Program-made: the position numbers and the translations under genes
DNA from: an uncultured Flavobacteriaceae bacterium
GTDB lineage: Bacteria; Bacteroidota; Bacteroidia; Flavobacteriales; Flavobacteriaceae
Direction: 5' to 3'
Assembly: GCA_905480425.1 (NCBI GenBank)
Contig: CAJQQG010000005.1
Span: forward strand, 28,541 to 92,540
DNA: 64,000 nucleotides
Notes under the pieces: generated by a model
Seen by the model: the letters and a program-made list of their open reading frames with translations, nothing else
The model's database searches: none
Told to the model about the DNA's origin: nothing
Shown here: piece by piece, positions 19,113 to 21,815 of the stretch
Position numbering within the stretch: the first letter of the stretch is position 1
Layout of the letters: each line of letters opens with the position of its first letter

Positions 19113-19484
19113 CTATTTTATTTTCTTGATTGTACCGCGATGTCTGTTTTTACTATCACCAACAAGAGAATACTGAAAAGTATAAGTATTGTCTTTTGTG
19201 TTTAGTATTTTCATCTGAATAGGTCTTTTGTCTTGATTTGAGGAAGGGTTTAATTTTGTAAGAATACATTCACAGTCATTTACCCAGCGAATTTTAGCAG
19301 TGTCTATTACGCCCTTATAAACCTCTATTTCATAGATAGAATCCCTTGTAAATATTGAAGAAGTCAGTTCTCCATTGATGATTTGAGTAAACTCAAAACT
19401 TCCCGCGTGAAATCGATTGCAATCTCGCTCTGAAGAGTAGCAGGAAGTAAAAAGAAAACCAATCCCTAGGAATAAAAATTTCAT
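19113..19484 (-). CDS. small lipoprotein, conserved in flavobacteria
   Basis: ORF 123 aa, lipobox LFTSCYSS, then RDCNRFHAGSFEF...TAKIRWVNDCECILTKLNP; no topoisomerase motif. Confidence 0.7.
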   Translation of the reverse strand: MKFLFLGIGFLFTSCYSSERDCNRFHAGSFEFTQIINGELTSSIFTRDSIYEIEVYKGVIDTAKIRWVNDCECILTKLNPSSNQDKRPIQMKILNTKDNTYTFQYSLVGDSKNRHRGTIKKIK

Positions 19485-19498
19485 AAAGTGCTAAAATA

Positions 19499-19927
19499 CT
19501 AAGAATTGGGAATATAAATACTAAAAGTACCATTCTTATGTAATTGAATTATTTGAATAATTTCTTCGCTTATATGTCTATTAAAACTAGAATTTATTCT
19601 TTTTGCTTTTTCTTGTGATACTTCAGTATTATGATGCCCTGTTCCACTAACATTTCCAGATATTTTAAGTGATCCTTCGGTTAACAATTCAGGGGGAGAA
19701 GAAGTATTTTGTTTGGAGTTCCCCAGAATTAGCCAATCTAAATCAATCTCTCTAAAGTGTTCATGAATTTTTAACATAAAATCTAAACTTGGTTTATTTC
19801 TTCTAGATAAGATATGAGAAACGGATGAGCGCTGAACACCAATTCTTTCAGCAAATGCGGCAGCACTTAATTGATTGTTTAACATGATTTCCTCTAAACG
19901 CTTAAGAAATGATTCTGTGTTTAACAT
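19499..19927 (-). CDS. XRE-family HTH transcriptional regulator
   Basis: AAAFAERIGVQRSSVSHILSRRNKPSLDFMLKIHEHFREIDLDWLILG is HTH_3-like; variable C-terminal tail. Confidence 0.88.
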   Translation of the reverse strand: MLNTESFLKRLEEIMLNNQLSAAAFAERIGVQRSSVSHILSRRNKPSLDFMLKIHEHFREIDLDWLILGNSKQNTSSPPELLTEGSLKISGNVSGTGHHNTEVSQEKAKRINSSFNRHISEEIIQIIQLHKNGTFSIYIPNS

Positions 19928-19951
19928 TGTAATTATATTTTATAATACTTC

Positions 19952-19982
19952 CAAATATACAATTGTAATTTAATATAAACAA
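19952..19982 (-). promoter_or_regulatory. promoter for the HTH regulator (TTG-N20-TATATTTG on minus strand)
   Basis: CAAATATA 19952-19959 and CAA 19980-19982 on + strand. Confidence 0.55.
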
Positions 19983-20066
19983 ACACTAAAATAATTAAAC
20001 TAATACTTAAATAATAATATTTAAATCCTTGATAATCAATTATATATTAATATATATAAAAAATAA

Positions 20067-20168
20067 TTTACATTTGTAAACAGGTGATCAAAAGGTTAAG
20101 GTAAAAAAATAAATTATGATATTGTTGTGAACTACATTTGTAAACAAGTAGATGTTTACATTTGTATT
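20067..20168. promoter_or_regulatory. three-copy operator-like array TTTACATTTGTAAA
   Basis: Copies at 20067-20080 (TTTACATTTGTAAA), 20131-20144 (ACTACATTTGTAAA), 20155-20168 (TTTACATTTGTATT); each contains TACATTTG. Confidence 0.6.
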
Positions 20169-20180
20169 AACATGTAAGTA

Positions 20181-21272
20181 ATGATTAATAAAAGATATTT
20201 ACCACCAGCTATTGTAGGAACCTTTATAAAGAACTTACCTAAAGGTTCTAAAGTTAAAACCATCGGTTATTCTGTTCAAAAAAGACCAATTAGTTTGGTT
20301 TCAATTGGAGTTGGAAACACTAAAATATTACTTTGGTCTCAGATGCATGGAAATGAAAGTACTACAACAAAAGCACTTTTTGATTTTATCCCCTGGTTCT
20401 TAGACTCTTCTCAACAAGCATATCAGAAAAAATTTACGTTAAACATTATATTACAATTAAATCCTGATGGTGCCTCTGCTTATACTCGATTAAATGCTAA
20501 CAGTGTAGATTTAAATCGTGATGCACTTAAAGTGTCTCAACCTGAGAGCAAAGCACTTCAAAATACTTATAATAGTTTTAAGCCTGACTATTGTTTGAAC
20601 CTTCACGGACAACGCACCTTATTTTCAGCAGGTGAAATGGGTCAGCCTGCTAGTATTTCTTTTTTAGCACCTTCTGCAGATATGAGTAGAACACTAACAC
20701 CAGCTCGAATTATTGCAATGAAATGTATTGTAGCAATCTTTAAAGGATTAGAGAATGATCTTCCTGATCAAATTGGTCGTTATGATGACACTTTTAATCC
20801 TAATTGCGTTGGAGATCGCTTTACTTTATTAGGAACACCAACAATTCTTTTTGAAGCTGGACATTTTCCTGGAGATTATCAAAGAGAGGTGACTCGCACT
20901 TTAATTTTAAAAAGTTTTAAATTTTTTTTTAATGCATTACTTGTGGATAAAAACATTTACAATGTTAATGAGTATCTGAATATTCCTGAGAATTCTAAAG
21001 ATTTTGTTGATTTACTTGTGAAAGAAGTAAATATAATTGACCAAGGGACGCTTTTTAAATCACAGCATTTAGGTGTTCGCTATGAAGAAAAGTTAGTAAA
21101 TGGAGAAATATATTTTATTCCTTTTGCAGCAGTCTATGGCGATGAAATAGAATTTAATGCCCATCGAACAATAACCCTTCCAAGTGACTTAAAGAATATT
21201 CCAGTAATATTTGAAGTAGATAAACCTATCCAAATAAAGGAATTTTCTGAATTATTTTCAATAAAATTGTAA
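20181..21272 (+). CDS. M14 family zinc carboxypeptidase-like protein
   Basis: LLWSQMHGNESTTTKALFDF (HxxE), LNLHGQRTLFS, ILFEAGHFPGDY. Confidence 0.88.
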   Translation: MINKRYLPPAIVGTFIKNLPKGSKVKTIGYSVQKRPISLVSIGVGNTKILLWSQMHGNESTTTKALFDFIPWFLDSSQQAYQKKFTLNIILQLNPDGASAYTRLNANSVDLNRDALKVSQPESKALQNTYNSFKPDYCLNLHGQRTLFSAGEMGQPASISFLAPSADMSRTLTPARIIAMKCIVAIFKGLENDLPDQIGRYDDTFNPNCVGDRFTLLGTPTILFEAGHFPGDYQREVTRTLILKSFKFFFNALLVDKNIYNVNEYLNIPENSKDFVDLLVKEVNIIDQGTLFKSQHLGVRYEEKLVNGEIYFIPFAAVYGDEIEFNAHRTITLPSDLKNIPVIFEVDKPIQIKEFSELFSIKL

Positions 21273-21335: not shown

Positions 21336-21815
21336 ATGAGTAAAGTAAATTTAGATGAAATTGATCATCAAATTCTTGATATTTTGATAGATAACACGCG
21401 AATCCCTTTCACAGACATTTCAAAACGCTTGGTTATTTCCGCAGGAACAGTTCACGTTCGTGTAAAAAAAATGGAGGAATCAGGTATAATTAAAGGCTCT
21501 TCTTTAAACCTGGATTATGTTAAGTTAGGTTATTCATTTATTGCATATGTAGGGATTTTTTTAGAAAAAACAAACACAACCTCAGAAGTTCTGAAAGCTC
21601 TTAATGACATCCCTTTTATTACTGTTGCTCATATAACAACCGGAAAGTTTAATATTTTTTGTAAAGTTCGTGCTCGTGACACTCACCATGCAAAAGATAT
21701 TATTTTTATGATAGATGATATTGTTGGGGTCTCTAGAACAGAAACCATGATTTCTATGGAGGAAAGTATAAATGACAAGAAGCGCTTAATGCACCATATT
21801 TTTAACGAACTTTAA
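21336..21815 (+). CDS. Lrp/AsnC family transcriptional regulator
   Basis: LDEIDHQILDILIDNTRIPFTDISKRLVISAGTVHVRVKKMEESGII; AsnC C-terminal ligand domain. Confidence 0.93.
   Translation: MSKVNLDEIDHQILDILIDNTRIPFTDISKRLVISAGTVHVRVKKMEESGIIKGSSLNLDYVKLGYSFIAYVGIFLEKTNTTSEVLKALNDIPFITVAHITTGKFNIFCKVRARDTHHAKDIIFMIDDIVGVSRTETMISMEESINDKKRLMHHIFNEL

Follow-up and report, generated by a model that had tools for sequence, protein, structure and literature searches.

A conserved inverted-repeat array between divergent XRE regulator and M14 peptidase genes is a probable operator region in Flavobacteriaceae

Inspection of the divergent gap between an XRE regulator gene and an M14 peptidase gene, followed by the decisive comparison of this gap across genomes, indicated that its array of short inverted repeats is probably (at a rough probability of 0.82) the operator region of an autoregulated XRE repressor acting over two divergent promoters. 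The initial annotation had proposed that the array is bound by the adjacent XRE protein, which would block transcription. The comparative evidence supports this proposal, in which binding by XRE, repression rather than activation, and the existence of a signal or ligand are what we infer.

According to the proposed mechanism, XRE dimers would bind short dyads with the consensus (G)TTTACA-WW-TGTAAA(C). On the side of its own gene XRE would cover the region of the -7 box and the start codon, and on the M14 side it would cover a pair of dyads spaced by 24 bp, the proximal member of which is predicted to be the M14 -7 box itself; bound XRE would keep RNA polymerase off both divergent promoters. 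Release of XRE by a signal, or a fall in its level, would permit transcription of XRE and M14, and perhaps of the Lrp gene that follows. This class of mechanism, an autoregulated XRE repressor over divergent promoters, is familiar. Promoters in Bacteroidota are unlike the textbook type, and to our knowledge few regulator-operator pairs have been defined in Bacteroidota. No description of the XRE regulator, of the motif or of the XRE-M14 pair was found in the open-access literature searched, most subscription papers being outside its coverage.

Gene content of the XRE/M14 locus

The window, which is the whole 64-kb stretch of DNA that was analysed, comes from a genome of 1.85 Mb and 85% completeness, whose Flavobacteriaceae genus is known chiefly through metagenomes. 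The gene order is parE, parC, terC (minus strand), a lipoprotein-like ORF (minus), XRE (minus), M14 (plus), Lrp/AsnC (plus) and PEP carboxylase (plus), where parE, parC, PEP carboxylase and the lipoprotein carry the names that we gave them from the sequence. The gene for the 142-aa XRE regulator (19499-19927, minus strand) is separated by a divergent gap of 253 bp (19928-20180) from its putative target gene, which encodes an M14-family metallopeptidase (20181-21272, plus strand; Peptidase_M14, 41.8 bits versus a cut-off of 21.6). An Lrp/AsnC regulator gene lies 3' of M14 (21336-21815, plus strand), was found beside M14 in 60/60 family loci, and is possibly on one transcript with it. The small conserved lipoprotein-like ORF adjoining XRE (19113-19484, minus strand) is kept in most of the Flavobacteriaceae loci examined and had no match in searches of Pfam and NCBIfam.

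Residues H56, E59, H142 and E225 of the M14 protein, corresponding to the zinc ligands (HxxE plus H) and the catalytic Glu, were invariant in 24 homologues, and its structure model matches metallocarboxypeptidases. Identity with the MpaA murein tripeptide amidase was rejected (25.8 bits versus a cut-off of 157 for NF007897). An M14 peptidase was present in 142/150 genera; if the proposed regulation is correct, the regulator would give a starting point for the study of this near-universal enzyme.

Inverted-repeat sites in the divergent gap

Three TTTACA-TT-TGTAAA sites, one perfect and two with a degenerate arm, had been described in the gap, and a check of the sequence agreed with their coordinates. 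Copy 1 is the perfect dyad TTTACATTTGTAAA (20067-20080; column conservation 0.80). Copy 2, ACTACATTTGTAAACA (20131-20146; column conservation 0.84), and copy 3, TGTTTACATTTGTATT (20153-20168; column conservation 0.99), are the distal and the proximal member of the 24-bp-spaced pair; the 14-mer of copy 2, ACTACATTTGTAAA (20131-20144), is degenerate in its left arm, and that of copy 3, TTTACATTTGTATT (20155-20168), in its right arm. The sequences TGTAAACA (20139-20146) and TGTTTACA (20153-20160) were also found exactly as reported earlier.

Three further sites, absent from the initial annotation, were identified. An XRE-side dyad, TATACAATTGTAAT (19956-19969; column conservation 0.82), overlaps the upstream edge of the predicted XRE -7 box. 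A degenerate dyad at about 19919-19934, reading AATTACAATGTTAAAC on the minus strand, lies over the XRE start codon; it is conserved in the family and reads GTTTAC-AATG-GTAAAC in many other genera. A second degenerate dyad, TATTGTTGTG (20120-20129; surrounding column conservation 0.77), is located upstream of copy 2 and reads TACTTTTGTA in most of the genus.

The sequence of the window or of the gap alone is weak evidence for these sites, and conservation is strong evidence. The whole window contained 17 matches with no more than 2 mismatches versus 15 expected, and the gap alone contained 4 near-matches versus 0.8 expected (P = 0.0085); the enrichment in the gap alone is modest, and comparison across genomes was therefore needed.

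Conservation of the sites within the genus

Twenty-nine other members of the genus showed the same neighbourhood (30 loci including that of the window), and it is still kept where the identity of the XRE proteins is as low as about 42-56%, as in most genus members. The gap is 250-257 bp long in 29/30 of these loci and 390 bp long in L011, and the series of sites occurs at nearly fixed positions in the gaps of the 30 genomes, including the 12-mer GTTTACATTTGT of copy 3, which is close to the M14 ATG in 27/30. Mean column conservation across the 30 loci was 0.77-0.99 for the sites versus 0.58 elsewhere in the gap, and 0.92 immediately 5' of the XRE start codon. None of 252 circular shifts matched the difference in conservation between the sites and the rest of the gap, a test that gauges the strength of the pattern rather than its discovery because the sites were picked after the alignment had been seen. 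Near-matches to TACANNTGTA in the 30 gaps numbered 130 versus 17 expected, the highest of 200 shuffles reaching 35.

Conservation also extends into the XRE coding sequence, where all 30 genus members have TTA-AAC as codons 2-3. Because Asn3 is always encoded by AAC, which accounts for 22% of the Asn codons in these genes, while the other invariant Asn positions of XRE use both codons across the genus loci, the constraint on the XRE start region acts on the DNA and not on the protein alone. If the proposed mechanism is correct, this would be a case of an operator constraining codon choice at a start codon.

Two observations within the genus count against XRE as the repressor that uses these sites. 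The XRE-side dyad has been lost from L014, from L023 and from one clade, formed by L027-L029 and L031, and the closest sister genome, G004, retains an intact operator array although its XRE frame is broken in the linker (L004 1356-1782). The broken frame in G004 could be a sequencing error.

Overlap of the sites with promoter elements

In Flavobacterium psychrophilum the -7 box TAnnTTTG is located at -12 to -5 (PMC9723704). The sequence TACATTTG, which fits this consensus, had been noted in every copy of the array, and this holds for all three copies in the window, but orthologues keep the asymmetric form in copy 3 only, and orthologous copies 1 and 2 also appear as TACAAATG, TACAATTG or TACATATG. 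Judging from these alignments, TACATTTG within copies 1 and 2 is incidental, and overlap with a predicted -7 box is conserved for copy 3 and the XRE-side promoter, not for all three copies.

The TACATTTG inside copy 3 (20157-20164, plus strand) is the predicted M14 -7 box, from which transcription is predicted to start near 20169, with a leader of 12 nt. In 21/21 genera with a 24-bp pair before M14 the proximal copy is TACATTTG, and the core of the distal copy is TT, AT, AA, TA or other; because the proximal copy is fixed and the distal copy is variable, copy 3 can be read as operator and -7 box in one. The predicted XRE -7 box, TATATTTG (19952-19959, minus strand), likewise matches the TAnnTTTG consensus (PMC9723704) and has a TTG 20 bp upstream (19980-19982, minus strand). 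Across the genus the XRE promoter takes the form TTG-N20-TATATTTG, with the dyad between the two elements and overlapping the -7 box, and in other genera TACATTTGT is oriented toward XRE in 22/25 cases.

That copy 3 and the XRE-side site fit the -7 consensus would also be expected if the repeats were not operators but only promoter elements, that is, -7 boxes (TAnnTTTG) in an AT-rich gap. This explanation is hardly credible, since the dyad symmetry reaches past the -7 box, the TTTG orientation is not kept in the distal copies, which do retain the dyad, a dyad runs into the XRE coding sequence with its codon constraint, and the sites are missing where XRE is missing.

The genus and family alignments revealed no conserved TTG at -33 of the M14 promoter, a result which counts against repression of M14 by XRE and favours an alternative in which XRE represses itself but activates M14, the protein at the distal sites recruiting polymerase to an M14 promoter without a good -33 element. 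Lambda CI at its right operator represses one promoter and activates another. Activation would also be in line with copies 1 and 2 being located 5' of the -7 box and with the kept 24-bp spacing of the pair. However, the best-conserved site is copy 3, which overlaps the -7 box itself; a protein bound there should keep polymerase out, and activation of M14 is regarded as unlikely compared with its repression by XRE.

Co-occurrence of the motif with XRE genes

The family survey covered 60 M14 loci, each from a different Flavobacteriaceae genus, and XRE divergently adjoins M14 in 56 of them. Of the 56 loci in which XRE adjoins M14, 53 had TACAWWTGTA sites, versus 0/4 of the others, which had none upstream of M14 (Fisher p = 7e-5, this value and the site counts being inflated by the kinship of the genomes). 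Absence of the sites from orthologous loci had been named at the outset as evidence that would speak against an operator; they were kept in the 30 genus genomes and in the 53 family loci. The exact site was absent in three of the 56 loci with an adjacent XRE (L210, L214 and L216), which weighs against the repressor proposal. Among all 256 palindromes of its form TACAWWTGTA ranked first in the 56 family gaps, with 122 occurrences versus 50 for the runner-up. The retention of XRE beside M14 in these 56/60 sampled genera, the short and easily scored operator and the predicted starts make the proposal testable in model flavobacteria.

A scan of species genomes with the XRE alignment detected relatives across Bacteroidota, many of them not beside M14, and these M14-less relatives bear TTACAWWTGTAA arrays just 5' of their own start. 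Upstream of 31 M14-less XRE homologues TACAWWTGTA was again the top of 256 palindromes (58 versus 8 for the next); it occurred in 25/31 loci, at 6.2 per kb upstream versus 0.2 per kb over the remainder of these loci, and its flanking preference was equal with and without M14. In L251, where an extra gene splits XRE from M14, two dyads 24 bp apart stay at XRE and none is near M14. That the adjacent XRE is the candidate binder had been an inference of the initial annotation, and it gains comparative support from the motif marking M14-less XRE homologues and being absent 5' of M14 where XRE is missing or distant. Five genus genomes without a detected XRE also had no M14, but these genomes are incomplete and the co-loss is uninformative. 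In L093 (a Bergeyella record) a gene that is TerC-like by its sequence separates XRE from M14 and is oriented like XRE, with dyads upstream of this gene and of M14.

The 10-bp core of the array is shared with the cop box of the CopY/BlaI/MecI repressors, TACANNTGTA, which is present as two operator copies over a promoter (PMC7253601), and a protein of this kind could in principle bind the array. These repressors belong to PF03965, a protein family other than that of XRE; no PF03965 match was found in this genome (85% complete) or in 36/38 genus genomes, no copper or beta-lactamase gene adjoins the array, and across Bacteroidota the motif is associated with the XRE gene. BlaI/MecI/CopY was rejected as the binder, and binding by a protein other than XRE is very unlikely.

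The XRE protein and related repressors

The XRE protein passes the Pfam gathering score for HTH_3 (36.4 bits versus 23). Its structure model has confident helices at residues 4-17, 22-29, 33-40, 48-57 and 63-68, forming a five-helix Cro/CI fold, which is followed by a linker that is disordered and by a C-terminal beta-hairpin (126-138), the latter again confident; at a guess, the hairpin may be a dimerisation element. The top Foldseek matches of the model included 434 Cro and repressor, P22 c2, SinR and controller proteins, but no match reached an E value of 0.001.

The HTH fold is common to XRE and the Cro/CI repressors (434, P22 c2, SinR, C.AhdI and C.BclI). Cro/CI repressors use short, multi-copy dyad operators over their own and the neighbouring promoter, and the array described here resembles such operators in having several short dyads across the promoters of the putative repressor and its neighbour. 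Unlike the Cro/CI repressors, XRE is located at a conserved chromosomal locus beside parC with no adjoining phage or restriction genes, its operator sequence differs from theirs, it carries a short C-terminal beta-hairpin after a flexible linker, and its sequence similarity to solved structures is only weak. HigA antitoxins and RstR repressors have weak HTH similarity to XRE (26.2 and 24 bits), below their curated cut-offs (47.7 and 80). Identity as a HigA antitoxin was rejected on the TIGR02607 score (26.2 versus 47.7 bits) and on the lack of a HigB neighbour; no toxin gene was recognised among the genes next to XRE (lipoprotein-like ORF, TerC, parC and M14).

Other sites and other neighbouring genes

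A search for a wider regulon detected none in this genome. The array 14-mer occurs at one other genomic place, inside a cysteine-desulfurase-like gene, and TTACAWWTGTAA has two further occurrences, one within a coding sequence and the other 5' of an ornithine aminotransferase gene. The latter is a perfect TTACAAATGTAA about 110 bp upstream of the gene (L122 1501-1512; G000:C8:4740-4751). Ornithine aminotransferase was rejected as a conserved target: apart from this genome only the sister genome G004 has the site, and every other orthologous upstream region examined was without it. In 38 genomes of the genus the strict 12-mer was roughly as frequent as its reversed control (47 versus 40 occurrences). 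When six larger genomes were scanned, about half of their strict sites fell at the XRE locus. Because strict sites are rare elsewhere in the genomes, the XRE system looks local in its action.

A broader proposal, which we put forward tentatively, is that these proteins form a family of self-contained XRE switches which extends across Bacteroidota and is as yet undescribed, and in which the operator is fused to the -7 box of the phylum and to the regulator's own start codon, so that one short dyad would serve as promoter element, operator and translation-initiation region; such switches may govern M14 in Flavobacteriaceae and apparently pyrKD in Marinilabiliales.

Two other arrangements were observed. 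In the M14-less loci L083, L088, L089, L091, L111, L114 and L117, XRE is followed by pyrK-pyrD and TACAWWTGTA also occurs shortly 5' of pyrK, which suggests that pyrimidine synthesis genes may be another target at these loci. In the other Bacteroidales-type loci L095, L097, L098, L099, L103, L104, L105 and L113, XRE adjoins a gene for a nucleoside-diphosphate kinase and usually also one for an NrnA-like DHH phosphoesterase.
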